Assembly (NCBI GenBank): GCA_001800315.1
Contig: MGVE01000008.1
Coordinates: 248,001-312,000 of the forward strand
Length of the DNA: 64,000 nucleotides
Direction of reading: 5' to 3'
Source of the DNA: Elusimicrobia bacterium RIFOXYA2_FULL_47_53
Lineage (GTDB): Bacteria > Elusimicrobiota > Endomicrobiia > Endomicrobiales > XYA2-FULL-47-53
Shown: in pieces, positions 25,625 through 61,600 of the stretch
Layout of the letters: the number at the start of each line of letters is the position of its first letter
Position numbering within the stretch: position 1 is the stretch's first letter
Made by a program: the position numbers and the translations under genes
The notes under the pieces: model-generated
What the model was told of the DNA's origin: nothing
The model's database searches: none
What the model saw: only the letters and a program-made list of their open reading frames with translations

Positions 25625-26302
25625 GTGAGTATAATTGAAATTAAAGGATTGAAAAAAGACTACCCGCTTGGCGACACGAAAGTGCACGCCCTGCGCGGAG
25701 TGGACCTTTCCATCAACGAAGGCGATTTTATGAGCATAATCGGACCTTCCGGCAGCGGCAAAACCACGCTTCTCAACATTATAGGATGCATTGACTTCGC
25801 CACGGAGGGAAGCGTGATGGTCGGCGGCCACGAAATAACGGCTTTAAATGACCGGCAGATTACGGATATCCGTCTAAACAAAATCGGTTTCATATTCCAG
25901 ACCTTTAACCTGATTCCGGTTTTAAACATTATTGAAAATGTGGAGTTTCCTCTGCTGCTTATGAAAAAGCACTCCGCCTCAGAGGTAAGAAAAAGAGCAG
26001 AAAAGCTTATTTCCGAAGTGGGCTTAAGCGAGTTCGCCAGGCACCGCCCCGCCGAGCTTTCCGGAGGCCAAAGGCAGCGTGTCGCCATAGCGAGGGCTCT
26101 TGTCACAAATCCGGATATAGTGCTTGCCGATGAGCCTACCGCGAACCTGGATTCTGTGACTGGCGATCAGATATTGTCTCTTATGCGGGAAATGAATAAA
26201 ATTGAGAAAACAACTTTTGTATTTTCAACTCACGACCAGAATGTGTTAAAGTACGCCAACAACATCACCAAAATCAAAGATGGCCGCTGCGCGACTGAAT
26301 AA
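25625..26302 (+). CDS. LolD/MacB-type ABC transporter ATPase
   Basis: The GTG start has GAGGAG six bases upstream. The 225-residue ATPase shows Walker A GPSGSGKTT, Q-loop FIFQTFNLIPVL, signature LSGGQRQRVAIARA and Walker B IVLADEPTANLDS, with DRQITDIRLNKIGF typical of the LolD/MacB/FtsE branch. It should drive the two FtsX-type permeases downstream. Its last codons (GRCATE) and stop lie inside the first copy of a 60-bp tandem repeat. Confidence 0.93.
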   Translation: MSIIEIKGLKKDYPLGDTKVHALRGVDLSINEGDFMSIIGPSGSGKTTLLNIIGCIDFATEGSVMVGGHEITALNDRQITDIRLNKIGFIFQTFNLIPVLNIIENVEFPLLLMKKHSASEVRKRAEKLISEVGLSEFARHRPAELSGGQRQRVAIARALVTNPDIVLADEPTANLDSVTGDQILSLMREMNKIEKTTFVFSTHDQNVLKYANNITKIKDGRCATE

Positions 26303-26550
26303 GGAGCGCGTGATAGCGGCGGACGCGAGTCAGTGAGCGGCCTTCGCTGCGCGACTGAATAAGGAGCGCGAGACAGCGGCGGACGCGAGTCAGTGAGCGG
26401 CCTTCGCTGCGCGACTGAATAACGAGCGCGAGACAGCGGCGGACGCGAGTCAGTGAGCGGCCTTCGCTGCGCGAGGAATAACGAGCGCGAGACAGCGGCG
26501 GACGCGAGTCAGTGAGCGGCCTTCGCTGCGCGACTGAATAAGGATATTTA
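26285..26550 (+). repeat. 60-bp tandem repeat, 4.4 copies, starting inside the ABC ATPase gene
   Basis: Units begin CGCTGCGCGACTGAATAA and end GTCAGTGAGCGGCCTT. Copies span 26285-26344, 26345-26404, 26405-26464 and 26465-26523 (59 bp, one deletion), with a 27-bp partial copy at 26524-26550. Differences between units are only a few bases. The first unit supplies the final codons and TAA of the upstream gene. GACTGA and TCAGTG within each unit form imperfect inverted repeats. Confidence 0.95.
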
Positions 26551-26695: not shown

Positions 26696-26792
26696 TTGAC
26701 TCAAATTACAAAACAGGTTTGTCATGCCGGAAATCTGTTGTCCGGCATCCACAACAAAGCCGTTTATGAATGACTTTTTGAAAAGGTTATAA

Positions 26793-47835: not shown

Positions 47836-47897
47836 GTCATTCCTGCAAAAGCAGGAATCCAGAAAAACCTCTGGATGCCAGCTGCTGCTGGTATGAC
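47836..47897 (+). repeat. Four-way-junction palindromic repeat, copy A
   Basis: The 62-nt unit has an outer stem GTCAT/ATGAC enclosing three back-to-back hairpins with no unpaired bases between them: TCCTGC/GCAGGA, ATCCAG/CTGGAT and GCCAGC/GCTGGT (one GU pair). Confidence 0.88.
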
Positions 47898-47917
47898 GAC
47901 ACAAAAGCGCACACGCC

Positions 47918-48011
47918 GTCATTCCCGAATTGTTCTGTCGGGAATCCATAACAATGGCATTTTGTTAATGACTCAAAGAAGTGGATCCCAGACTGAACCC
48001 TCTGGTATGAC
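47918..48011 (+). repeat. Four-way-junction repeat, long arm-2 type, copy 1
   Basis: The outer stem is GTCAT/ATGAC. Arm 1 is TCCCGA (loop ATTGTTCTG) TCGGGA, arm 2 is ATCCA/TGGAT with a 35-nt loop, and arm 3 is CCCAGA/TCTGG. Near-identical copies lie at 54518-54611 and 57969-58062. Confidence 0.82.
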
Positions 48012-48034
48012 GACACGAAGAAGTTTGCCGTTCA

Positions 48035-48069
48035 CTTATAACTTACAACTTAAAACTTATAACTTAAAA
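48035..48069 (+). repeat. CTTANNN heptamer array
   Basis: Five uninterrupted 7-bp units: CTTATAA, CTTACAA, CTTAAAA, CTTATAA, CTTAAAA. Confidence 0.9.
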
Positions 48070-48096
48070 TGTTCTGTCTGGGATCCATAAAGGGCC

Positions 48097-48224
48097 GTCA
48101 TCCCTGTGAAAACAGGGATCCAGCAAAACCCTGAATACCAGCTTCCCAGACTGTGTCGTAATTGCCAAAAATGACCGTTTTGTCATTCTGGGACATTGTG
48201 ACACAGTCTGTCCGCTGGGATGAC
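48097..48224 (+). repeat. Four-way-junction repeat with nested 64-bp insertion
   Basis: The outer GTCAT/ATGAC stem and arms 1 (TCCCTGT/ACAGGGA) and 2 are present. The arm-3 loop TTCC is interrupted by 48147-48210, which begins CAGACTGTGTC and ends with its exact complement GACACAGTCTG. TCC stands on both sides of the insertion, like a target duplication. The insert contains a smaller AATGAC/GTCATT hairpin. Confidence 0.82.
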
Positions 48225-48247
48225 GACACGAAGAAGTCCGTCGTTCA

Positions 48248-48282
48248 CTTACAACTTAAAACTTAAAACTTATAACTTAAAA
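48248..48282 (+). repeat. CTTANNN heptamer array before the flavin reductase gene
   Basis: Five units: CTTACAA, CTTAAAA, CTTAAAA, CTTATAA, CTTAAAA. The Shine-Dalgarno AAGGAG of the next gene begins two or three bases later, so the array sits in its leader. Confidence 0.88.
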
Positions 48283-48296
48283 TACAAGGAGTCCGT

Positions 48297-48848
48297 ATGA
48301 AAACCCCATTTAAATCCGTTCCTTTAAAGCAGTTTTACCGCCTTATCAATCACGGCCCCTGCGTAGTCGTAACCACGGCCAGCGGGAAATCAAAAAATGC
48401 CGCGCCGATAGCCTGGGCCATGCCCGTAAACGACGAACCGCCTCTTGCCGCGATTTCAGTGGCCGACACCCATTTTACCGCGGAACTTATTAAGAAAAGC
48501 GGGGAGTTTGCCATAAATGTGGCAAACGAGGCTATCTTAAAGGAAATGCTTTTTTGCGGCAGCGTTTCAGGAAGAAAGACCGATAAAATAAAAAAATCCG
48601 GCCTCTCTGTTATTAAAGGCAAAAAGATAAAAGTTCCGGTCTTGAAAGACTGCGCCGGATATCTTGAATGCAGAGTTATAGACAGTATTGAATACGGCGG
48701 CGTTACGGTTTTTGTGGGGAAAGTTCTTTACGCGGCGGCAAAGCGGGGAGCCTTTGATTCCTGCTGGGTACCGGAAAAAGCTAAAACCGTGCATCACATA
48801 GGCGGAAAGTTTTTTGCCTTTACAGGAAGCCGGTTTCAGTCGGAGTGA
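48297..48848 (+). CDS. Flavin reductase-like (FMN-binding split barrel) protein
   Basis: The ATG has AAGGAG six bases upstream. The 183-residue protein shows the flavin_reduct pattern: PCVVVTTASGKSKNAAPIAWAMPVN, DTHFTAELIKKSGEFAINV and a C-terminal GKVLYAA strand. Such proteins bind FMN and act as NAD(P)H:flavin reductases or as accessory flavoproteins. It stands alone between a repeat cluster and a convergent operon. Confidence 0.87.
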   Translation: MKTPFKSVPLKQFYRLINHGPCVVVTTASGKSKNAAPIAWAMPVNDEPPLAAISVADTHFTAELIKKSGEFAINVANEAILKEMLFCGSVSGRKTDKIKKSGLSVIKGKKIKVPVLKDCAGYLECRVIDSIEYGGVTVFVGKVLYAAAKRGAFDSCWVPEKAKTVHHIGGKFFAFTGSRFQSE

Positions 48849-48880
48849 AATTGCGGCAGAGGTTATTCTACTGACTCAAA

Positions 48881-50968
48881 TTATATTTTAAAAAGCTTTG
48901 TTATTATGTACGAAAGCGTTGTGCCGAGCACGGCGCCGGCCAGGACATCCAGAGGGAAATGCACGCCCACATATATTCTGGAAATGCCTATTAAGGCGGC
49001 AAACGCGAAAAAGATATACCAGAACTTGCGGACTTTCAAAGAAAGGAAAGTGGCGGTTAAAAATGAAACCTGCGTATGGCCGGAAGGAAAAGAATTGTAT
49101 TTAAGGCCCGGCCCGAGCACCCTGACCAGATCCCCGAAAACAGTAAGCGGCCTTGCCCTGCTGAAAAATTCCTTTATAAAATGAGTGAGTGCCCCGCTGA
49201 AAAGCATCAAGGCCACCATAAACAAAAACTTTTTCCAGAAGTTTTCGCGGCTGTAAAACCACAGCACCAGGCCGCCGAATATTCCCAGAAGGATGCCGTC
49301 GCCGGTAAAACTCAGAAACCTCATCAGATAATCAATCAAAGGAAGTTTTCTCTCCCTGTTCAGGAAAAAAAATACCTTTGTGTCGGCTTTATTAAGGTAA
49401 TCCTTCCAGTAAACCCAGGGGCTTAAAGCGCCGGCAGTATATTCTTTTGGCAATGCTGACAATTTAAAATTCCTTCCCGTAGTCAGCCAGAAAATTCTTG
49501 TTTTTTTGCCTTTGCGGAAACTTTCAACCGCGACAGGCTTATCCCAGGAGCTGAACGGGTATATTTTTTCTGGTTCGGTGAAAAACCTGTTATCGCAGAC
49601 GAAGATACCGTCTCTTCCGTCAAGGACAGAGAGGTCCCTCTGCCAGAAATCGTAGGCGTCAATCCTGTCCGACAAGCAATATATTTTCGGATGGCCCGGC
49701 ACATAAAACTTCAGCTGGCTGGCGATATAATGGCGGTGCGTGAAAATAAACGGCTTTGGCTCCGGGGAATTCTCCACCAGCTCTGCAATTTTTCTGCCGG
49801 CGTCGCCCCAGCCGTAGAGTTCGTTGGTGACATCCATTTTTTCCGCTTTAGTTATACCGTCCTCAATTTTTCGCGCTTCCTGCGCCGGCAGAAACAGCTC
49901 GGCAGGCAATACCTTGTAAACCGCCTGAAGCGGCACCAGCAAAGTCAGAAACAGCCCGAAACCCCAGGCGGTGTAACTTGAAACCCTGAACCATTTTTTA
50001 TCCCAGCTCTCCAAGGTCATTTTCGCCACGGCCGGCGTCAGCACAAGGTATCCCATAGCCGGCCAGTGAGGCAGTATCTCGTTGAAACTTGCTATGGCGT
50101 TAAAAAGAAAAAGCGTGGGGAACGAAAAAGAAAATATTAGAAGGGAATTTTCATCTTTTGCCTTTAAGGCCTTAATAGCAAAATAAACCAGCGCGGCCCA
50201 GTAAATAATGAACAGAAAAGGAGAGATATATCCGGCCTGGGCGCCGAGGCATTTGCCGAGAAGCGCCGCGGAAAATGCCGGAGCCTTGCTCCCGAAACCG
50301 TGCTTTAGCTGGAAACCGAACGAGGCCCAGCCGTTTTCCATATTCCACAAAAGGACCGGAAGAAATATTATAAATGCCGAAACAAGGGCAAGATAAGGCT
50401 CTTTTTTCATCAGCCAGTGCCGGTGTTTGGGAGACAGGGCTATAAACAGCAGGGCCGAGGCGGGAAGCAGAATAGCGTTATACTTAGACAAAAGCCCCGC
50501 TCCGAGCAGAACACCCAGAATATACCAGTAGCCGGGCTTTTGAGTCCTTACAAGAAGGATAAAAACATAAATGAATATTACCCACAAAAGCGCGAGAGGG
50601 ACATCCGGCACCGTCAGCACCGCCCCGAGAAAAGAAAATACCGGAACGACATTTAACAGGATTATGCTCCAGAGCGCCGTCTTTTCGTCAAACAGCTTTT
50701 TCGCGATGAAATAAATAAAAATGCTCATCACAAAAAAGAAAAGGACGGCCGGAAACCTTACGGCAAACTCGTTTACTCCGAAAATACCGGTGAAGAATTT
50801 TATTATGTAGCCTATGGCGGGGGGGTGGTCAAAATAGGACAGTTCGGGCTGGCGGCTGAAAGCGAAATAATGCCCCTCGTCGTCGCCAAGGCCTATGCGC
50901 CCTATGACAAGCAGCCTTAAAAGCGCGGTGGAAATATTAATAAGCCAGAAAATCACAATATTGCTCAT
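48881..50968 (-). CDS. GT39/ArnT-like glycosyltransferase fused to PAP2 phosphatase
   Basis: I place the start at 50968, where ATG overlaps the stop of the upstream GT2 gene (ATGA), giving 695 residues. The N-terminal two thirds is a polyprenol-phosphate-sugar-dependent GT39/83 transferase with many helices and the motif GDDEGHYFAFSRQPELSYFDHPP. The C-terminal part (about 530-695) is a PAP2 phosphatase with KEFFSRARP, PSGHTQ and SRIYVGVHFPLD, all three catalytic motifs intact. The fusion may couple sugar transfer to recycling of the lipid carrier. Confidence 0.9.
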   Translation of the reverse strand: MSNIVIFWLINISTALLRLLVIGRIGLGDDEGHYFAFSRQPELSYFDHPPAIGYIIKFFTGIFGVNEFAVRFPAVLFFFVMSIFIYFIAKKLFDEKTALWSIILLNVVPVFSFLGAVLTVPDVPLALLWVIFIYVFILLVRTQKPGYWYILGVLLGAGLLSKYNAILLPASALLFIALSPKHRHWLMKKEPYLALVSAFIIFLPVLLWNMENGWASFGFQLKHGFGSKAPAFSAALLGKCLGAQAGYISPFLFIIYWAALVYFAIKALKAKDENSLLIFSFSFPTLFLFNAIASFNEILPHWPAMGYLVLTPAVAKMTLESWDKKWFRVSSYTAWGFGLFLTLLVPLQAVYKVLPAELFLPAQEARKIEDGITKAEKMDVTNELYGWGDAGRKIAELVENSPEPKPFIFTHRHYIASQLKFYVPGHPKIYCLSDRIDAYDFWQRDLSVLDGRDGIFVCDNRFFTEPEKIYPFSSWDKPVAVESFRKGKKTRIFWLTTGRNFKLSALPKEYTAGALSPWVYWKDYLNKADTKVFFFLNRERKLPLIDYLMRFLSFTGDGILLGIFGGLVLWFYSRENFWKKFLFMVALMLFSGALTHFIKEFFSRARPLTVFGDLVRVLGPGLKYNSFPSGHTQVSFLTATFLSLKVRKFWYIFFAFAALIGISRIYVGVHFPLDVLAGAVLGTTLSYIITKLFKI

Positions 50969-51669
50969 GCGGCCAGCTTCAGCTTCCACACCCGAAAAAG
51001 GTATTTTATCAGAGTGGCGGGTTTGAGTTTTGACTGCCCCTTTCCTCTCGGCATGAATTCTATGGGAGATTCTTTGATTTTAATATTGTATTTTTTCAGG
51101 TAAAACAAAACTTCCGTCACAATAAAAGGGTCGCGCGAAGAAAGATTCGGAAGAATTTTTTCCAGCGCGGATTTTGAAAACATCCTGAACCCCGAGGTCG
51201 GATCCTGCACCTTAACTCCCAAAACAGCCGCGAGATATTTTCTCGCGAAACCGCTTATGGCCTGGCGCAGGAAAGTTCTTGCCTCGTCCTTTCCGCCGGG
51301 AACATACCTTGAGCCGATAACAACATCACAGCTTCCGGAATTATTGACAAAATCAGGAATAAAGCGCGGATCATGCGAAAGGTCGCCGTCCATCTCAACA
51401 ACCCAGTCAGCTCCCAGTTCAAGAGCTTTTTTGAAACCGTCAATGCCGGCCCAGCCGCGCCCGCGGTTCTCCTTTCTGAGCAGAAGATGAACCCTGCTGT
51501 CTTTAGAGGCTAAACTCTCAACGATTTTACATGTTCCGTCGGGCGAATTATCGTCGGCTATCAGCACCTCAATGTTTAAGGGCAGGCTCAAAAGGCGCTC
51601 AATAAGAGCGGCTATATTGCCGGCTTCGTTGTAAGTCGGTATCATAGCTATAATTTTTTGGGTATTCAT
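50965..51669 (-). CDS. Polyprenol-phosphate mannosyl/glucosyltransferase (DPM1-like GT2)
   Basis: The 234-residue GT2 enzyme has MIPTYNEAGNIAALIERLL, VLIADDNSPDGT, WVVEMDGDLSHDPRFIP and DPTSGFRMFSK, diagnostic of the DPM1 branch without C-terminal membrane helices. It should make polyprenyl-phosphate-hexose, the donor needed by the fused GT39 enzyme encoded next. Both junctions in this operon are ATGA overlaps. Confidence 0.93.
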   Translation of the reverse strand: MNTQKIIAMIPTYNEAGNIAALIERLLSLPLNIEVLIADDNSPDGTCKIVESLASKDSRVHLLLRKENRGRGWAGIDGFKKALELGADWVVEMDGDLSHDPRFIPDFVNNSGSCDVVIGSRYVPGGKDEARTFLRQAISGFARKYLAAVLGVKVQDPTSGFRMFSKSALEKILPNLSSRDPFIVTEVLFYLKKYNIKIKESPIEFMPRGKGQSKLKPATLIKYLFRVWKLKLAA

Positions 51670-52805
51670 TTTTTTTCCGGGCGGGCGGGCAGGCTTTTTT
51701 CAATAACATGCCACAGTATGCCGGGCTTTATGGAGTTCATACAGTCGGGTTTTTTATCGCATGTCTGCCTGTAACAGCACACACAGGGCAGGCCTGAAAC
51801 AACCTTGGGCCCCAAACCGTACATTTCAATTTCCGGCTCTGAGGTGGGGCCGAAAATGGCCACGGCTTTTTTCTTAAGGCCGAGCGCCGCGTGAAGCGCC
51901 ATGGTATCGCCCGTAATTACCATATCGCAGAGGTTAATAAACGCGAAAAAATCCGGTATTGAATTATTAGTGCCGGCGCTTATAGCCTTGCCGCGGCTCT
52001 TTTTTAACATTTTCCTGATTATGGATTCTTCTTCCGGGCCGCCGAGCAGGATAACCTTCGCCCCGCGCGAATGGAGTTTGTTTATTATCTCCAGGTAGCC
52101 TGAGGCCGTCCAGCGTTTCATTTTCCAGCGTTTTCCGGCGCCGGGGTTAATTCCGACAACCAGTTTATTGTTGAGCCCGTGTTTCACGGCGAATTTACCG
52201 GCTCTGACAGCCGAGTCCGCGGCTATCGGTACATAAATGGGATAATCCGGTTTCTTTAAGCCGGTTATCTTTGATATCCAATATTGGTATGTACTTTTAT
52301 TGGCTTTTTTCAGGTCGTCAAAAGCGCTCATGGAAAGCCAGTGCTTCGCGTAATGGTTTGAACTTACGACCTGCCTGGCGGAATTCAGGGAATATCCCGT
52401 TATCTTTTTTGCCGCCGCCATTGAGGCAAGAGCCAGGCTTGCGGGGGAAAGGTCAAGGTTAATAACCTCGTTAAAACCCTCTGACAATAATTTTTCAAAA
52501 ATATGCTTGTCATTAATCCAAATATGTTCTATATAAGGGTTGCCTTTTAGCACCTCCGAAGAGGATGCCGACGAGACCCAGGTAATTTTGCAGTTAGGAT
52601 ATTTCTTTTTGAGTCCGGGAAGAAGGAAAGTCGTACGAAGCACATCGCCCATGGCATCAAGCTTTATAATCAGGATTTTATACGGCTTAATATTTTTGGG
52701 TATAACCGGAGCGTAATGGCCGCAGGAAACGCACTTAATTCCATTCTGTTTATGGAACCTGCAGGGGCGGTCAAGCGGGAAATTGATACAGTCGGTTTTT
52801 ATCAT
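51666..52805 (-). CDS. GT9 heptosyltransferase-family glycosyltransferase with Cys-rich termini
   Basis: This is a 379-residue ADP-heptose:LPS heptosyltransferase-like protein: ILIIKLDAMGDVLRTTFLLPGL, VGINPGAGKRWKMKRW and VITGDTMALHAALGLKKKAVAIFGPTS. It has an added N-terminal segment with four Cys (DCINF, RPCRF, IKCVSCGHY) and a C-terminal CVCCYRQTCDKKPDC cluster, which together could bind a metal. It leads the leftward operon with its own promoter. Confidence 0.9.
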   Translation of the reverse strand: MIKTDCINFPLDRPCRFHKQNGIKCVSCGHYAPVIPKNIKPYKILIIKLDAMGDVLRTTFLLPGLKKKYPNCKITWVSSASSSEVLKGNPYIEHIWINDKHIFEKLLSEGFNEVINLDLSPASLALASMAAAKKITGYSLNSARQVVSSNHYAKHWLSMSAFDDLKKANKSTYQYWISKITGLKKPDYPIYVPIAADSAVRAGKFAVKHGLNNKLVVGINPGAGKRWKMKRWTASGYLEIINKLHSRGAKVILLGGPEEESIIRKMLKKSRGKAISAGTNNSIPDFFAFINLCDMVITGDTMALHAALGLKKKAVAIFGPTSEPEIEMYGLGPKVVSGLPCVCCYRQTCDKKPDCMNSIKPGILWHVIEKSLPARPEKK

Positions 52806-52831
52806 AAATGATTGCCGGTAAAATTTGTTTC

Positions 52832-52860
52832 ATCCTAACAAATTTTTTCTTTTCCGTCAA
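52832..52860 (-). promoter_or_regulatory. Promoter of the leftward GT9-GT2-GT39 operon
   Basis: On the minus strand, TTGACG (52855-52860) and TAGGAT (52832-52837) are separated by 17 bp. A start near 52825 gives a leader of about 20 nt. Confidence 0.6.
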
Positions 52861-52923
52861 ATATTGTACAATGCTTTATGCTCGGATGGGTCCCGGAAGG
52901 GGTGTGAGAAACAAAAAAAGTCT

Positions 52924-52985
52924 GTCATTCCTGCAAAAGCAGGAATCCAGAAAAACCTCTGGATACCAGCTTCCGCTGGTATGAC
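52924..52985 (+). repeat. Four-way-junction palindromic repeat, copy B
   Basis: This is the cleanest copy: outer GTCAT/ATGAC, arms TCCTGC/GCAGGA (loop AAAA), ATCCAG/CTGGAT (loop AAAAACCT), ACCAGC/GCTGGT (loop TTCC), and no base unpaired at the junction. It is preceded by a module C tail (CCGGAAGGGG near 52896) and followed by heptamers at 53009-53029. Confidence 0.9.
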
Positions 52986-53029
52986 GACTAAAAGAAGTCC
53001 GTCGTTCTCTTACAACTTACAACTTGAGT

Positions 53030-53282
53030 CAATTGAAAAAGTGTTTCAGCCCGTCTTTGCCTGCCCGCCAAAGCTTTTGTGGAGGGCGAGGAGTGCAACG
53101 ACGCGTTAGCCCGCCAGAGGTTCAGTGGCGGGGCAATCTCGCAGTTAAATGGTTTTGTAGCTGCGCAGCTTGCTGCGCGTTCCGTAAAAGCTGTCATTCC
53201 TGCAGTTGCAGTGCGGCGAATAAGCCGCACAAGCTTGCAACGGGTGCGAGATGTGAGCACACACAGGAATCCAGAAAAACCA
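53030..53282 (+). repeat. Interspersed repeat module D and a four-way-junction fragment before larE
   Basis: The stretch holds TGGCGGGGCAATCTCGCAGT, TTTTGTAGCTGCGCAGC and a GCGCAGC-TT-GCTGCGC hairpin, matching 54402-54478 and, with compensatory changes, 56912-57013 and 57085-57211. Then come GTCATTCCTGCAGTTGCAGT and GGAATCCAGAAAAACC, a four-way repeat whose arm 1 has been expanded. The frame of larE stays open through it but this is repeat, not gene. Confidence 0.75.
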
Positions 53283-54086
53283 ATGGATAGAAAAATATCA
53301 AAGCTTAGAGATATATTAATCAGGCATAAAAGAGTTCTTATAGCCTTCTCCGGCGGAGTGGACTCGTCCTTTCTGCTGGCGTTTGCCGTCAAAACACTCG
53401 GCAGAAACAATGTCCTTGCGGTAACGGCAGTAAGCGAGACCTATCCAAAACAGGAACTGGTAAACGCCAGAGCCATGGCTGCAAAGCTCGGCGCGAGGCA
53501 TAAAATATTGCGCACCTGCGAGCTTAACAACATAAAATTCAGCTCAAACCCGCCGGAGCGCTGTTTTTACTGCAAAGACGAGCTGTTTTCAAAACTCTCG
53601 TCTTTGGCCGCCGAAAACAAAATGGTTCTCTGCGACGCCACAAATTATTCCGACAACTCCGACTACCGTCCCGGCAGAAAAGCCGCGCGTAAGTGGGCCG
53701 TTGCTTCTCCGATACTTGAGGCGAAAATCACAAAGTCCAAACTGCGCTCTTTCAGCAGGCGGTTAAAACTCGGCAACTGGAACAGCCCGGCTCAGGCCTG
53801 CCTGGCCTCCAGGATACCTTACGGAACCAAAATAAACCGCGAAGAACTCTCCAGAATAGAACGAGGAGAAGAATACCTTAAAAAAATGGGCTTTAATGTC
53901 GTACGGATAAGAAGCCACGGGGATTTGGCAAGGCTTGAGGTCGCGGCGGATTCGGTGCGCAAGCTCGCGCAAGAAAAAATAAGGAAAAAAATCTCGGTTG
54001 TCTTAAAAAAACTCGGCTGGAAGTACGCAACCATTGACATGGATGGCTACAAAATGGGAAGCCTGAACCGCCAGATAGGGCATTGA
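53283..54086 (+). CDS. larE: ATP-dependent sacrificial sulfur transferase LarE-like
   Basis: The likely start is the ATG at 53283, giving 267 residues (typical LarE length). Motifs are the PP-loop IAFSGGVDSSFLL, RHKILRTCEL, NPPERCFYCKDELFS with the CxxC-like sulfur-donor Cys, and SPAQACLASRIPYG. LarE builds the nickel-pincer cofactor of lactate racemase with LarB and LarC, neither of which is nearby. The start codon coincides with a repeat's usual CTGGAT, changed to ATGGAT, and lacks a good Shine-Dalgarno. Confidence 0.85.
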   Translation: MDRKISKLRDILIRHKRVLIAFSGGVDSSFLLAFAVKTLGRNNVLAVTAVSETYPKQELVNARAMAAKLGARHKILRTCELNNIKFSSNPPERCFYCKDELFSKLSSLAAENKMVLCDATNYSDNSDYRPGRKAARKWAVASPILEAKITKSKLRSFSRRLKLGNWNSPAQACLASRIPYGTKINREELSRIERGEEYLKKMGFNVVRIRSHGDLARLEVAADSVRKLAQEKIRKKISVVLKKLGWKYATIDMDGYKMGSLNRQIGH

Positions 54087-54128
54087 CCTTACTGCGCGTT
54101 TCTGTTTTGAAGCAGTCCCGTAAAGGCG

Positions 54129-54650
54129 TCATTCCGGAACCGTTCTGTCAGGAATCCTAACACCCCTTTCTAACTTTCTTTGGACGCTCAAAGAAAGTTA
54201 ATAAAGAAACGCGACCCCGCGAGCCATTCGCAAAAGAATTTTAGGCAGTCTTGCAAACTCCCTGCCTTGTCGGCAGGTCAAACAGGCAAGACTGAAAGCA
54301 TCCAAAAATACTTTTGCTCATAACCGACTCGGAAGGGGTATGCGACACAAAAAAAGTCCGTCATTCCAGGGTGGTTCTGCCCGGAATCCAGAAAAGGTTG
54401 TCATTGCGAGGAACGAAGCAGTCTCGCAGTTAAATGGTTTTGTAGCTGCGCAGCTTGCTGCGCGTTGCGTAAAATCTGTCATTCCAGAATGGTTCTGTCT
54501 GGAATCCATAAAAGTCTGTCATTCCCGAATTGTTCCGTCGGGAATCCATAACAATGGCATTTCATCAATGTCTCTAAGAAGTGGATCCCAGACTACTACC
54601 TCTGGGATGACAACACAACAAAACCTGTCAGCCCCGACTACTGCATGAGG
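54129..54650 (+). repeat. Cluster of interspersed repeats (modules C, D and four-way-junction types)
   Basis: The order is a repeat arm (GTCATTCCGGAACC, 54129), module C copy 2 (54172-54358; AACTTTCTTTG / CAAAGAAAGTT hairpin and CAGTCTTGC / GCAAGACTG stem), a GTCATTCCAGGGTGG arm, module D (54402-54478), and a full long-arm-2 four-way repeat at 54518-54611. Short frames here are chance. The 54087-54128 and 54651-54736 edges hold nothing I recognise. Confidence 0.82.
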
Positions 54651-54736
54651 GATGACGGTCAACAACCAACTGCTAATATTTGCTCCGTAACAACCAGAGC
54701 ACTGCCTAAGGATTAGCTCACAACTGTAACTTTTGC

Positions 54737-54765
54737 TTGACAGTCCGGTCATAAAATTATATATA
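54737..54765 (+). promoter_or_regulatory. Promoter of the Orn/Lys/Arg decarboxylase gene
   Basis: A perfect TTGACA (54737-54742) and TATATA (54760-54765) with a 17-bp spacer. The start near 54772 leaves a leader of about 38 nt before the ATG at 54810. Confidence 0.6.
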
Positions 54766-54809
54766 AAGCAGCTAAATCAGCGGTGCCGGAAATGCCGCAA
54801 AAGGTTAAC

Positions 54810-56264
54810 ATGAGAACCAGAAGCAAAGCACCTTTATTTGAAACACTGCTTGACCACGCTAAACGCAAGGTCATTTCCTTTCACACGCCCGGGCACAAGA
54901 ACGGGCGCGGCATAGACAAGCGCCTGCGCTCATTTACCGGAAAAAATTTATACCACATGGATGTAACGGTTTTTCCGGAGGTTGATTCGCTTCACGACCC
55001 AACGGGCCCAATAAAAAAAGCTCAGGAGCTTATGGCGAAAGCCTACGGCGTGAGCCATTCGCTTTTCCTCGTCAACGGTTCCACTGTGGGCAACACCGCG
55101 ATGTTCCTTTCGGCTTGCAAGCCGGGGGACTCGGTAATCGTTTCAAGAAACTCTCACAAATCCATAATGGCGGGCATAATCCTTTCCGGCGTCTGGCCCA
55201 TATGGATACAGCCGAAAATAGACCAGAACCTGGACATTATATTTGATTCTTCGCCTGAGCAGATACTGGAAGCTCTTGAAAAATATCCGGAGGCCAAGGC
55301 CGTTTTCGTCACAAGCCCGACCTACAACGGCGTGGCGACCAACCTTACCAAAATAGCCGAGATTTGCCACGAAAGAGGCAAAATCCTGCTGGTTGACGAG
55401 GCTCACGGGCCGCACCTGAAATTTCACGAAGACCTTCCTATTTCCGCGGTGGACACCGGAGCCGACCTCTGCGTCCAGTCAACGCATAAGATTCTTTCAG
55501 CAATGTCGCAGGGCTCGGTTCTCCATTTCAATTCCAAACTGCTTGACATAAACAGGGTAAAAAAAGTAGTTTCCATGCTCCAGACCACAAGCCCTAATTA
55601 CATAACGCTCGCGAGCCTGGACCTTGCGCGCCTTCAGGCGCTTGAGCACGGGCGCCAGATGCTCGGCAGGGTCCTGAAAGCCGCCGAATACGCCAGAAAA
55701 AATATCAACCACCTGCAAAAGTTCAGCTGTTTCACCCGTCAGGAAATATTAAGGCTCGGCTACGATCTTGACACTTCAAAACTTACAATAAATGTCACTC
55801 GTTCCGGGTTCTCCGGATACCAGATTGAAGACATACTCACAAAAGAATACAACATACAGGTTGACTGCGCCGATCTTTTCAACCTTATCGCTATAATGGG
55901 CATAGGCTCGGAAAAAAGCGATGTCGTCGCGCTTGTCAACGCGCTCTCGGACATTGAGAAGAAGTATACGGGCCACCAGCAGAACTGGGCGCTTCAGATA
56001 CCTTCGCTCGCGACAGAGATGGTGCTTATGCCCAGAGATGTATTTTTGTCCGGCAAAACCAAGAGGGTTCCGATAAATAAATCCGTTGGTTTTATTTCCG
56101 CTCAAACCTTAACGCCATATCCTCCGGGTATTCCGGTTCTTATCCCGGGCGAGCGCATAACAAAAGAAATTTGCGAGTACTTGACTGAAATGTCCGCAAA
56201 AGATATAAGAATAAGCGGACAGGAGACAGACACGCTTAGAACAATAAAAGTTGTAGCAAGTTAA
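54810..56264 (+). CDS. Orn/Lys/Arg decarboxylase family PLP enzyme
   Basis: The ATG at 54810 has AAAAGG five bases upstream and is preferred over a GTG at 54783; the product has 484 residues, the length of the short SpeA/YaaO branch. Motifs are SFHTPGHKNGRG, LFLVNGSTVGN, VDEAHGPHLKFH and the PLP-binding STHKILSAMSQGS. The C-terminal domain includes PGIPVLIPGERI. It decarboxylates arginine, lysine or ornithine, feeding polyamine synthesis; the exact substrate is not readable. Confidence 0.92.
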   Translation: MRTRSKAPLFETLLDHAKRKVISFHTPGHKNGRGIDKRLRSFTGKNLYHMDVTVFPEVDSLHDPTGPIKKAQELMAKAYGVSHSLFLVNGSTVGNTAMFLSACKPGDSVIVSRNSHKSIMAGIILSGVWPIWIQPKIDQNLDIIFDSSPEQILEALEKYPEAKAVFVTSPTYNGVATNLTKIAEICHERGKILLVDEAHGPHLKFHEDLPISAVDTGADLCVQSTHKILSAMSQGSVLHFNSKLLDINRVKKVVSMLQTTSPNYITLASLDLARLQALEHGRQMLGRVLKAAEYARKNINHLQKFSCFTRQEILRLGYDLDTSKLTINVTRSGFSGYQIEDILTKEYNIQVDCADLFNLIAIMGIGSEKSDVVALVNALSDIEKKYTGHQQNWALQIPSLATEMVLMPRDVFLSGKTKRVPINKSVGFISAQTLTPYPPGIPVLIPGERITKEICEYLTEMSAKDIRISGQETDTLRTIKVVAS

Positions 56265-56280
56265 GTGTAAACATAAGGCT

Positions 56281-56312
56281 GGATCCCAGACTACTACCTC
56301 TGGGATGACGAC
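56281..56312 (+). repeat. Arm-3 remnant of a four-way-junction repeat
   Basis: GGATCCCAGACTACTACC and TCTGGGATGAC repeat the third arm and closing strand of the long-arm-2 type. The rest of the unit is missing. Confidence 0.65.
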
Positions 56313-56377
56313 TCAAATGAAAATCAACGCAAGAGTAAGCCCGGGTTTGCGAGGGCACATCAAAAAGGGAGAATAAA

Positions 56378-56719
56378 ATGAACAAAAAAGAAATGGAAAA
56401 ATTCAAAAAAATTCTGCTTGAGAAGCGGGATGACCTCATGAAAGTCGTGAAAACAAAAAAAGAGCAGGACCTTACCGATGTGGAAATCGGCGACGAAATT
56501 GACAGCGCCTCCGCCAACACCGAGAAGGAAATGCTTTTTGAGGTGACCGACAACGAAAAGGTTATGCTTGATTCAATAGAATCCGCGCTTAGAAGAATTG
56601 AGAAGGGGACTTTCGGGGCCTGCGAGTCCTGCCGCCAGAAAATTTCAGAGGCAAGAATTAAAGCTATTCCCTGGGTGCGCTACTGTATTGAATGCCAGTC
56701 AAAAGCCGAAAAAGCGTAA
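56378..56719 (+). CDS. TraR/DksA family zinc-finger protein
   Basis: The 113-residue protein has an N-terminal coiled-coil helix pair (about 1-75) and a C-terminal C4 zinc finger (CESC and CIEC, 17 residues apart) with the family phrase ALRRIEKGTFGACESC and IKAIPWVRYCIECQ. A GGGAG upstream marks the start. Such proteins bind the RNA polymerase secondary channel and adjust transcription, often with ppGpp. Its terminator follows directly. Confidence 0.93.
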   Translation: MNKKEMEKFKKILLEKRDDLMKVVKTKKEQDLTDVEIGDEIDSASANTEKEMLFEVTDNEKVMLDSIESALRRIEKGTFGACESCRQKISEARIKAIPWVRYCIECQSKAEKA

Positions 56720-56741
56720 ATATCAAAAAATCCTGGGATGC

Positions 56742-56786
56742 AATCGTTCCCGCGTTGCTTAAATACAACCCGGGAACGATTTTTTT
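56742..56786 (+). terminator. Intrinsic terminator of the TraR/DksA gene
   Basis: A perfect 11-bp stem AATCGTTCCCG (56742-56752) and CGGGAACGATT (56771-56781) has an 18-nt loop and runs into seven T residues (56780-56786). It lies 22 bases after the stop codon. Confidence 0.9.
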
Positions 56787-56799
56787 GCCAATAAGCGCC

Positions 56800-57350
56800 T
56801 CGGAAGGGGGATTTAAAATCATAAAAAGCCCGTCATTCCTGTGCAAACAGGAATCCAGAAAAACCACTGGATACCAGCTTCCGCTGGCATGACAACACAT
56901 ATAAAGTCTGTCATTGCGAGCGAAGAGACGCGTCAGTCCGCCGAAGACACAGTGGCGGGAAGCAATCTTGCAGTTAGTTGGTTTTGTAGCTGCTGAGCTT
57001 GCTCAGCGTCCGTAAATCCGTCATTCCAGAAAAACCACTGGATACCAGCTTCCGCTGGTATGACGACACATAAAAAAGACCGTCATTGCGAGCGAAGCGG
57101 CGCGTCAACCCGCCAACGGTTAAGTGGCGGGAGAGTCCGCCGAAGACACAGTGGCGGGAAGCAATCTTGCAGTTAGTTGGTTTTGTAGCTGCTGAGCTTG
57201 CTCAGCGTCCGCAAATCCGTCATTCCAGAAAAACCACTGGATACCCGCTTGCGCTGGCATGACAACTAAAAGAAGTTCGTCGTTCACATATAACTTACAA
57301 CTTAAAACTTATAACTGAAAAAGTTGTCTGGGATCCAGTAAAAACTCTGG
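56800..57350 (+). repeat. Cluster of four-way-junction repeats, module D and heptamers
   Basis: Copy C of the four-way repeat is 56832-56893, whose arm 1 TCCTGT/ACAGGA differs from copies A and B at both paired positions. Module D occurs at 56912-57013 and 57085-57211, each with a GCTGAGC-TT-GCTCAGC hairpin. Two four-way copies lacking arm 1 lie at 57020-57064 and 57219-57263. Heptamers CATATAA, CTTACAA, CTTAAAA, CTTATAA stand at 57287-57314. No gene is visible. Confidence 0.85.
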
Positions 57351-57357
57351 ATGATTT

Positions 57358-57870
57358 TTAGAACAATTGTATTTCAATTACTCTAAGGACAATCCCGGCG
57401 GAGAGAAAAACTGTATACGGAAGTGATGTGGTTTTTTCACTGTCAAAAATCAACGACTCCCTGTATCTGAATGTAAAAAACAAAACCAGCCTTTTCGCGA
57501 TATCTTTTACAACATTTAACAATCTACCCTGAAAAAGCATTATTACGACAGCGGCGGCGCCCCCTATAACCGCGCCGTAAATCCCGCCGTTTATCGCAAG
57601 GTCATACCCTTTAAGGCTTCCGACGGCCATCATAAATTTCACATCGCCGGCCCCTATCCCACCCGCCAGGTAAAACAAAATCAAAAGCGCGAATCCCGCC
57701 AATACGCCAAGAGCCGATTCCTTCAGCCCCAGCAGCCCGAAGTTAATAAAGTTTAGCCCGAGCCCGAGAGCGATGACGGGGAATGTTATGGCGTTGTAAA
57801 CTTTTCTGTATTTGATGTCCGAGAAGACGCAGACGGCAATAAACTCGGCGAGCAAAATATCTATTATCAT
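57358..57870 (-). CDS. Prepilin peptidase / A24 (TadV-CpaA type)
   Basis: This 170-residue membrane protein has about five helices. Two catalytic aspartates are seen: CVFSDIKYRKVYN and the GxGD motif GGIGAGDVKFMMAVGSLKGY. It lacks the N-terminal methyltransferase domain of PilD, so it belongs to the short TadV/CpaA branch, which cleaves prepilin leaders of Flp-type pili. No pilin or other tad gene is in the window. Confidence 0.9.
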   Translation of the reverse strand: MIIDILLAEFIAVCVFSDIKYRKVYNAITFPVIALGLGLNFINFGLLGLKESALGVLAGFALLILFYLAGGIGAGDVKFMMAVGSLKGYDLAINGGIYGAVIGGAAAVVIMLFQGRLLNVVKDIAKRLVLFFTFRYRESLIFDSEKTTSLPYTVFLSAGIVLRVIEIQLF

Positions 57871-57878
57871 ATTTCAGT

Positions 57879-57907
57879 AATTTACCACAATCGTTTTACT
57901 TTGTCAA
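57879..57907 (-). promoter_or_regulatory. Promoter of the prepilin peptidase gene, nearly leaderless
   Basis: On the minus strand, a perfect TTGACA (57902-57907) and TAAATT (57879-57884) have a 17-bp spacer. The predicted start near 57872 leaves only a few bases before the ATG at 57870. Confidence 0.55.
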
Positions 57908-57968
57908 AAATTCCTTAGACTCCCCAAGCACCCAAGAGCCAAGCAGCCAGTTTTGTCCAACAAGGTTT

Positions 57969-58412
57969 GTCATTCCAGAGTGGTTCTGCCTGGAATCCAT
58001 AACAATGGCATTTCGTCAATGTCTCTAAGAAGTGGATCCCAGACTACTACCTCTGGGATGACAACAAAAAGAAAGTCTGTCATTCCCGAGTTCTTCTGTC
58101 GGGAATCCATTAAGCCGTCATCCCAGAAATCTTCAGTCTGGGATCAGAAAAACCACTGGATACCAGCTTCCCAGACTGTGTCATAACTGCCATTAACGAG
58201 GGTTTTGAGCTGTTGTCATGCTGAACGCAGTGAAGCATCTCGACGGTAACAATAACTTCGCGATCCTTCGCTAACGCTCAGGATGACATTGCCACACAGT
58301 CTGTCCACTGGTATGACGACACAAAGAAGCCTGTCGTTCACTTATGACTTACAACTTAAAACTTATAACTGCCGTTGATGTTCACTTACCGCTTACCCCT
58401 TATCCCTTACCA
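57969..58412 (+). repeat. Interspersed repeat cluster with a Russian-doll insertion
   Basis: A long-arm-2 four-way repeat (57969-58062) is followed by a GTCATTCCCGAG arm (58079) and a four-way repeat at 58117-58317. The latter's arm-3 loop holds an insertion, 58172-58303, starting CAGACTGTGTC and ending CACACAGTCTG, flanked by TCC. That insert itself contains a second palindromic element (GTCATGCTGAACGC ... CTCAGGATGAC). Heptamers of CTTANAA and CTTANCC type follow at 58341-58368 and 58385-58412. From 58413 to 58548 I see nothing. Confidence 0.82.
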
Positions 58413-58548
58413 CTGTAGTCCCGTGTGCTTTTTGTCACATGCCATTGATTTTTCATATAAAACAAGCAATAGTATCAGTGTCCGCTAATGTGGGTTGTCA
58501 ATTCATTTTCATATACTATTTTTCACAATAACCATCCCAATTTTTTAG

Positions 58549-58577
58549 TTGACAAGCCGAATAATTATAATTATAAT
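58549..58577 (+). promoter_or_regulatory. Consensus sigma70 promoter of the giant FG-GAP gene
   Basis: TTGACA (58549-58554) and TATAAT (58572-58577) both match consensus and have the ideal 17-bp spacer. The predicted start near 58584 leaves a leader of about 29 nt before the ATG at 58613. Confidence 0.72.
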
Positions 58578-58612
58578 TGAATTGAATTTAGTTGCATTTT
58601 TTGAAATCCATT

Positions 58613-61600
58613 ATGAAAAACAAATCCCGTTTATATTATGGCGCCGGCACCAGCGACAGCCCGAAACTGTCCGCGGTGTTTTTTTATTTAATAAATTTGT
58701 TTTTTAAATTACTGGATGGCAGAAGTCGCGGAGCAACTCAAACGATACCGTCATCACAGAAATGTTCAGTCTGGGATCCAGAAAAACCACTGGATACCAG
58801 CTTCCGCTGGTATGACGACTCAAAGAAGCCTGTCATTGCGAGCCCGCAGGGCAAAGCAATCTCGTCATTAACGAATAGATTGCTTCGTCGTCACACTCCT
58901 CGCAAAGACTGCAAAACCACCTGTCACCCCTTTATAGCACACATCATAAAACTTATAGCTGACAATTTCCGTTCACTTATCCCTTACCCCTTAGCCCTTA
59001 CCACTGTCTTTATGGCATTTTCTCTTGCGCACGCGGGACCGGCAGTGATAAACACACTGACTGCTTCAACTACCTGCCAATATCAAATTATGCTTACCTG
59101 GACCGCTCCCGACAACGGAGCAGGCGGAGCCTGCAATTCTTATCTTGTTAAATATTCAACAACAGCCGACATAATTGATGAGGCTTCCTTCACGACGGCA
59201 TCCACTTACGGCCACAACTGGGCGCCGCGTACACCAGGCCTGGTTGAAAAGCGGTTCCTGACGGGTCTAATACCTGGAGTCACTCACTATTTCTCAATAA
59301 AAGGCGAGTTCAGCTCACAATATGCCGTGCCGTCAACCACGGGAACCAACGGCGGTATAACCGGCCCCTTCAGTCTATATATTTCAACTCTGACTGGCTT
59401 TGGCAGTGGCACTTCACTTGCCTGGGGCGATTACGACAATGACGGCGACCTGGACCTGGTTGCCTGCGGCATGATCAATGGCGTGACAACAAAAAACATT
59501 ATTTACCGGAATGACAACGGTTCTTTGAATAATAATGGCGCTGGAATACCTGATACCAGCGGTACATCTCCGGCCTGGGGAGACTACGACAATGACGGCG
59601 ACCTGGATTTAGCTTTAACCGGCCAGTCAAGCGCTATTTACCGTAATGACTCGGGGAGTTTCAGCAATATTAATGCCGGATTAACTGGCCTGGAAAACGG
59701 ACCTTGCGCCTGGGGCGATTATGATAACGACGGCGATTTGGATCTGGCCTACGGAGGAAGGGACTCTTTATACACTTCAAGATCCTATATATACCGCAAT
59801 GATTCCGGAACTTTCAGCGATATCAATGCGGTCCTTTCAGGCAGCTACTACAATGGAGCTCTTGCCTGGGGCGATTATGATAACGACGGCGATCTGGATC
59901 TGGCTGTCAGCGGCAGTAACATTTCACGCATTTACCGCAACGACTCAGGATCCTTCAACAATATAGACGCGGGATTACCGGCGCTTGAGAGTTCTTCTGT
60001 TGTGTGGGGTGACTACGACAACGACGGCGATTTGGATATGGCTGTCAGCGGCAGTGGTATTTCGCGCATTTACCGCAACGACTCAGGATCCTTCAATAAC
60101 ATAAATGCCGGGTTGACGGGCCTTTATAACAACTCTCTTGACTGGGGCGATTATGATAACGACGGAGACCTGGATCTGGCAATAGCTGGAATAGACGGCA
60201 GTTCTCGCGTACACACCTATCTATACCGCAGCGATTCCGGTATTTTCAGAAATATTTATGCCCTGGCTTACTATAGCGGTTCTGTTGCATTTGGCGATTA
60301 CGATAATGATGGAGACTTGGATCTGGCCGTTTCGGGTTACGACATAGCATCCGTTTACAGAACCCATTTTTACAAAAGTTATTATTCATTATCAAATCCA
60401 AATACAGCGCCTTCCGCTCCCTCAAGCGGATTCGGCTCGGACTTTAACTCAACGACAGGCATATTGCAGCTCAGATGGGATTATGGGAGCGATACGGAAA
60501 CAATAGAATCAAAAGGATTGTATTATACAGTAAGAATCGGAACTACGACACCGATGACCGATTCCAATGCTAACAAAGTTTCGTTTAAACCCGCTACCCC
60601 TTTTCTTGGCAATTATCCGCATGGATATGTAGTCGCGGCATCAACTCAAGCAGGAGTGATATACAAACCCCGCTTGACTGATACAACTTACTACTGGCAG
60701 GTCCGCACTATTGACACCTCGCTGAAAGAATCCGCCTGGTCTACCGAGCAGTCAACCTATGTGCCCGCGGGCCTTTTTGCGATACAGGATCTCGCGGTCA
60801 CTCAGGATTACCAGTTAAAACTTTCCTGGGTATCACCAGGCAATGTTTCAAACTATCTGGTGAAATACTCTTCGTACGCTAATATAACCTCCGACGAGGA
60901 ATTTATCAACGCCGCTACCTATTACCAGAGCTGGACACCTGCGGCGGCCGGTTACGGGGAATCAAAAATACTTACCGGACTTATTCCTTATGTGACATAT
61001 TACTTCTCAATAAAATGGTCCGCCGATGGCTCAGTATATTCGCCTTTATCTTCAACTGGTTCAAACATGGCCATTGCCGCTCCGTACAGTATTCACAGCT
61101 CAACGCTTACCGCTGTTTATGACGGCTCGCTGGCCTGGGGCGATTATGATAACGACGGCGACCTGGATTTAGCGTTAACCGGCAGTAACAGCGGCGGCTC
61201 GCCAATCTGCTACATTTACCGAAACGATTCGGGTAATTTCAATAATATTAATGCCGGCCTGACAGGCGTCAGCGGCAGTTCCCTGGCCTGGGGCGATTAC
61301 GACAATGACGGCGACCTGGACCTGGCGGCGGCTGGTGCCAGTAGCAGCAGAATATACCGCAACGACTCCGGAGTTTTCAATAACATCAGTGCCGCCCTGA
61401 CAACCGCCTATAGCGGTGATCTTGCCTGGGGCGATTACGACAACGACGGCGACCTGGACCTGGCCCTAACTGGCTGGACCGGAAGCGCAAGCATATCTAA
61501 TATATACCGTAATGACGCGGGAATATTTAACAATATTAGTGCCGGTATAGCTCCGGTTTACGAATCCTCATTTTCCTGGGGCGACTACGACAACGACGGC

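Follow-up and report, generated by a model that had tools for sequence, protein, structure and literature searches.

Palindromic repeats that can fold as four-way junctions in an Elusimicrobia genome are very probably CGTC-tagged REP elements in head-head dimers

The genome of Elusimicrobia bacterium RIFOXYA2_FULL_47_53 (G000; 2.41 Mb in 20 contigs) contains interspersed repeats, some of which fold as a gap-free four-way junction, raising the question of whether the junction or its parts are under selection. We analyzed a stretch of 64,000 nucleotides (G000:C8:248001-312000), here called the window. An initial annotation had described four copies in it as an outer GTCAT/ATGAC stem enclosing three contiguous hairpins and had taken compensatory changes in the arms as a sign of selection on structure in DNA or RNA. 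The repeats are indeed interspersed and palindromic. With one 66-base copy as the BLAST query, we found 41 places in the genome, and a strict pattern for half of the element, GTCATNCC..GGNATCCA, matched 164 times in the 2.4-Mb genome versus 0 for the reversed control. Clusters of the element are common in this genome.

Inspection of the four copies revealed a general form, GTCAT-hairpin-ATCCAG..CTGGAT-hairpin-ATGAC. Two of them fold as a gap-free junction, with GTCAT/ATGAC outside, followed by hairpins 1, 2, and 3. One is a short (62-nt) CGTC-REP head-head dimer at 47836-47897, consisting of a ATTCCTGC hairpin, a spacer, and a ATACCAGC-type hairpin; the other, at 52924-52985, is a short head-head dimer in which every junction base can pair. 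The remaining two are less regular: arm 3 of the short head-head dimer at 56832-56893 has one A-C mismatch at its base, and 58750-58816 is a chimera whose left half is of the long type, with arm 1 mismatched, and whose right half is of the short type, identical in kind to that of the short dimers. The arm sequences were correct as read: arm 1 is TCCTGC/GCAGGA in some copies and TCCTGT/ACAGGA, a compensatory pair, in 56832-56893, and the longer type has TCCCGA/TCGGGA against TCCAG/CTGGA. This longer type is represented by a 94-nt head-head dimer at 47918-48011 and by dimers of the same class at 54518-54611 and 57969-58062. Two copies lack arm 1 altogether, one at 57020-57064, which has a three-way form, and one at 57219-57263, which lies where the preceding ~199 nt are repeated. 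The ~199-nt unit, repeated within 56906-57270, ends in the dimer copy without arm 1. The only Rfam match in the window was a cobalamin riboswitch (RF00174, 45140-45531).

The window also contains half-units, each consisting of the tag, a hairpin, and CCA. On the plus strand, the strict half-pattern identified these at 54360-54390, 54478-54508, 58079-58109, and 26721-26751, the last with G-C at the stem position that the search pattern does not fix (GTCATGCC..GGCATCCA). A solitary half-unit with an intact tag was identified on the minus strand at 56280-56309, using the half-pattern and a tag check. At 53193-53289, a half-unit whose arm-1 loop is long terminates at what is probably the start codon of a gene (ccaATGGATAG), and the start region thus seems to be provided by the end of a repeat. 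Separately, 26285-26533 is a tandem array of four ~60-nt units.

To define the half-unit, we used copies collected from searches and from sequence stretches. Each half consists of (C/T)GTC, an AT-ended hairpin, and CCA, and the halves are arranged face to face in pairs. The CCA tail was present in 132/132 cores oriented by CC/GG. In cores oriented by the tail only, GTC was present in 130/132, preceded by C in 87 and T in 38, giving CGTC or TGTC in 125/132. The stem is 8-9 bp and starts with AT, which was fixed by the core search (ATTCCTGC, ATACCAGC, and ATCCCAGA are examples), and the loop is 4 nt in short halves and about 8-9 nt in long halves. A strict partner was present for 65/132 halves, and 112/140 had an inverted tag within 200 nt, indicating that head-head dimers predominate. 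Spacer lengths peak at 10 and 33 nt, corresponding to two dimer size classes.

Hairpins with ATTGC, ATCCT, and ATGCT stems and CTC, CTT, or CGC tails follow this tag as well. A hairpin follows CGTCAT in 110/280 occurrences and TGTCAT in 84/270, compared to 1-8% for five of six control words and 30/218 for the sixth, CGAGAT. Thus, a single tagged hairpin is the unit, and a facing pair of such units makes up the element. The three arms in defined order are simply a hairpin, a spacer with complementary ends, and a hairpin.

We then asked where in the element the compensatory changes lie. At the stem position not fixed by the search pattern, in 100 listed copies from this genome, we found C-G 36 times, T-A 33, A-T 22, G-C 3, and G-T 4, with two mismatches, such that 94/100 are Watson-Crick pairs and all four types are represented. 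Shuffling yielded ~45 standard pairs, and the observed number was never reached in 5000 trials, nor when only the 56 distinct sequences were used; this test leaves the relatedness of the copies in place. Copies with identical loops also differ by paired changes, as in ATCCCAGA..TCTGGGAT, ATCCCGGA..TCTGGGAT (a G-T intermediate), and ATCCCGGA..TCCGGGAT. Such recurrent paired changes on one loop background are hard to square with shared descent alone. In 41/41 dimers of this genome, the two arms carry different bases at the first free stem position, but dimers from two other genomes (G034 and G086) have T/T there, so the difference is a founder effect rather than a rule.

The stems that close the junction behaved differently from the hairpins. 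When the copies were aligned, changes in the arms were compensatory, while the outer stem was nearly invariant and the central stem also scarcely varied. In a 13-row dimer alignment with three organisms besides this one, only arm 1 had changes on both sides of the stem; there were none in the outer, central, or right stems, although the query used to retrieve the three additional organisms had already constrained part of the right arm. The only variable outer pair (left/right tag base) was C/C in 25 cases, T/C in 12, C/T in 12, and T/T in 7, the two mixed classes being equal by construction because every pair was counted once from either half. We detected no covariation at this pair: mixed, unpaired combinations (C opposite A) were as frequent as independence predicts. 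Moreover, GTC was kept in 27/28 halves with no inverted tag within 200 nt versus 110/112 halves with one. Unless every one of them lost its partner very recently, the solitary halves must keep the tag for a reason other than pairing with a partner. The compensatory changes are real but confined to the hairpins.

Folding with DNA parameters was consistent with a junction in some copies. Clean short dimers adopt the junction, with which a single long, imperfect hairpin competes. For the short dimers of this genome, the probability of arm 1 was 0.80, that of the left half pairing with the right was 0.16, and the mean probability of the outer tag pair was 0.60. For long dimers, arm 1 had a probability of 0.64 and left-right pairing 0.29; in the dimers of a relative (G065), the corresponding values were 0.00 and 0.98. 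The long type has the same half-unit arrangement, and its RNA minimum-energy fold was one long hairpin in 3/3 copies (47918-48011, 54518-54611, and 57969-58062), with no three-arm junction predicted. In the short copies, AT at all four corners permits two junction registers, each of which is optimal in different copies.

One explanation for the fold is that the four-way junction, as cruciform DNA or structured RNA, is itself selected and is recognized by a junction-binding protein. The two gap-free copies, the outer-pair and arm 1 probabilities of the short dimers, the occurrence of equal geometry in other phyla, and a second MITE that targets hairpin loops are all compatible with this idea. 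However, the outer and central stems do not covary, solitary halves conserve their tags, the long-type copies and G065 dimers favor or mix in one long hairpin, and two copies lack arm 1 entirely. We therefore assign this explanation only a very slight probability. The covariation noted in the initial annotation is strong inside the hairpin arms, but selection on the junction is not supported. A four-way junction forms because the halves face each other, with complementary tags making the outer stem and complementary tails the central arm; it is an emergent by-product of two facing tagged hairpins. An eye-catching junction can thus look conserved without being selected, and the structure can be placed in a known class.

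That class is very probably the CGTC-tagged REP elements, here in head-head dimers; these palindromic repeats would be small and non-autonomous and would multiply in pairs. CGTC REPs are defined by a CGTC/TGTC tag, an 8-9 bp stem starting with AT, and a CCA tail, with a loop of 4-5 nt that allows exceptions, and mostly occur as head-head dimers (Di Nocera et al., 2013; PMC3733652). The three-arm design is thus already described, as head-head pairs with differing arms and complementary-ended spacers (PMC3733652). The Neisseria and Rickettsia repeats named in the initial annotation fall into this class, as dRS3 and RPE-4/RPE-6 both belong to the CGTC-tagged REPs (PMC3733652). The repeats in our genome share with these heterodimers the tag, the AT-starting 8-bp stem, the CCA tail, head-head predominance, unequal arms within a pair, spacers with complementary ends, and the lack of a transposase link; every defining feature is present except the loop length in the long class, where loops are about 8-9 nt rather than 4-5. 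They also differ in that their loops can hold a second MITE, clusters are common, and hairpins with the same tag but CTC/CTT tails (ATTGC, ATCCT, and ATGCT stems) occur in the same genome. REPINs and BIMEs of GTAG-tagged REPs, which are associated with RAYT, are similar in that the repeated unit is an inverted pair of tagged hairpins and clusters are mosaic, but here the tag is CGTC/TGTC and RAYT is not consistently present.

An enzyme that moves CGTC repeats would recognize the tag and the shape of the hairpin, rather than its sequence, in single-stranded or cruciform DNA, and would copy the pair of halves as one. With this mode of recognition, which we infer, paired stem changes would be tolerated while the tag and tail remain fixed. 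Templated repair of imperfect palindromes could contribute further paired changes. No empty sites for dimers were found among the relatives at hand, which are not close enough, and dimer movement is thus presumed.

We observed, in addition to the anatomy, copy number, and hairpin covariation, lineage-specific stems in relatives and the same dimers in unrelated phyla. The pattern was present in 68 of 150 genomes searched (our genome and relatives), at 1 to 472 halves each, with controls at 0-1 per strand. Within one genus, the dominant stem differs by species: ACCCGT/TCCCGT pairs in G065, ACCGGC/TCCGGC in G076, and CCCGA types in G053. The exact right half also occurs in Pseudomonadota, a Nitrospirota MAG, and others, and several of these are the same kind of dimer; such dimers are present in Methylobacillus, the Nitrospirota MAG, and several Pseudomonadota. 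We found nothing in the literature on REPs in Elusimicrobiota. In G065, a larger repeat bounded by TCTCTAAAAACC ends contains CGTC dimers at one place in most of the 19 copies retrieved (L234-L250), and larger carriers of this sort may account for part of the amplification.

Since REPINs can be associated with RAYT, a Y1 HUH transposase, we considered whether RAYT mobilizes the repeats in this genome. It contains five Y1_Tnp genes, and the three tested are related to REP_Tyr_transpos, with scores below its cut-off. Across 102 genomes at least 90% complete, repeat and Y1 counts correlate (Spearman 0.42), although this is confounded with genome size and kinship. RAYT mobilization is nonetheless unlikely. 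Among these genomes, five of those with 10 or more halves (G014, G019, G052, G135, and G136), each at least 93% complete and one a single contig, have 12-195 halves and zero Y1 matches; a strict half lies within about 1.5 kb at only 1 of 29 related RAYT loci; and CGTC repeats were not associated with transposase genes in the earlier survey (Di Nocera et al., 2013; PMC3733652). The tag is not GTAG, and abundant repeats are not consistently accompanied or flanked by a RAYT gene. Because the repeats are abundant in near-complete genomes of the phylum that lack any Y1 transposase, gene content offers a way to test what moves CGTC repeats. The RAYT-like gene at L001:1447-2121 (G000:C20) has three CGTC half-units within the preceding 1 kb, on one side, which counts in favor of RAYT. 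Flanking was rejected as a general feature, as several strict halves occur only near this gene, and homologs in relatives are unflanked with one exception.

A role in transcripts, as 3′ stabilizers or processing sites kept for that function, would fit the intergenic location and the G-T pairs, and a comparable role has been proposed for REPs (PMC3733652). However, elements also lie between divergent genes (52806-53078 and from 57871 onwards), copy number varies from 0 to hundreds among relatives, and no T run follows the right arm in the sequence. We consider this role quite improbable.

The loops of the CGTC elements are themselves targets of insertion. We resolved 12 sites in G000 that hold a palindromic MITE, mostly of 132 nt and with CAGACTGTG ends. 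Two are in the window, each in the right-hand hairpin loop of a dimer with TCC/TCC flanks: a 64-nt copy (48147-48210) within 48097-48224 and a 132-nt copy (58172-58303) within 58117-58317. The other ten are elsewhere in G000 (L262-L285). No full-length IS with CAGACTGTG ends was present among the matches listed. A 3-bp duplication was found at 11/12 sites, with differing triplets, and all 12 insertions are within a loop of a CGTC element: eight in the loop of one hairpin, one in the left arm, one in a long-type loop, and two in the central arm. As the search used the MITE ends and ignored the flanks, this position was not built in. Sequence-specific targeting is possible, since 8/12 sites share one hairpin loop; the other four are in different loops. 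Insertion into loops at all 12 sites suggests that the hairpins form in DNA. Tentatively, and with some doubt, extrusion of the hairpins from the DNA of living cells may be frequent enough for an unrelated transposase to use the loops as landing sites. If so, the loop-targeting MITE is a genomic readout of hairpin formation, cruciforms have left a natural record in this genome, and nesting at the tips is a way for palindromes to grow.

Insertion at the symmetry axis of REPs is known for ISPsy8 and ISRm22, the former generating a 3-bp repeat (Tobes and Pareja, 2006; PMC1525189). The MITE is similar in its position at the hairpin axis and, as for ISPsy8, its 3-bp duplication, but it is a short non-coding element, its hosts are CGTC repeats, and it occupies several different loops. 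Inside the 132-nt MITE in the window, 58214-58288 contains a further head-head pair with tags (TGTCATGCTG..AGCATCTC / ..AGGAT..GATGACA), which belongs to the CTC-tail group.
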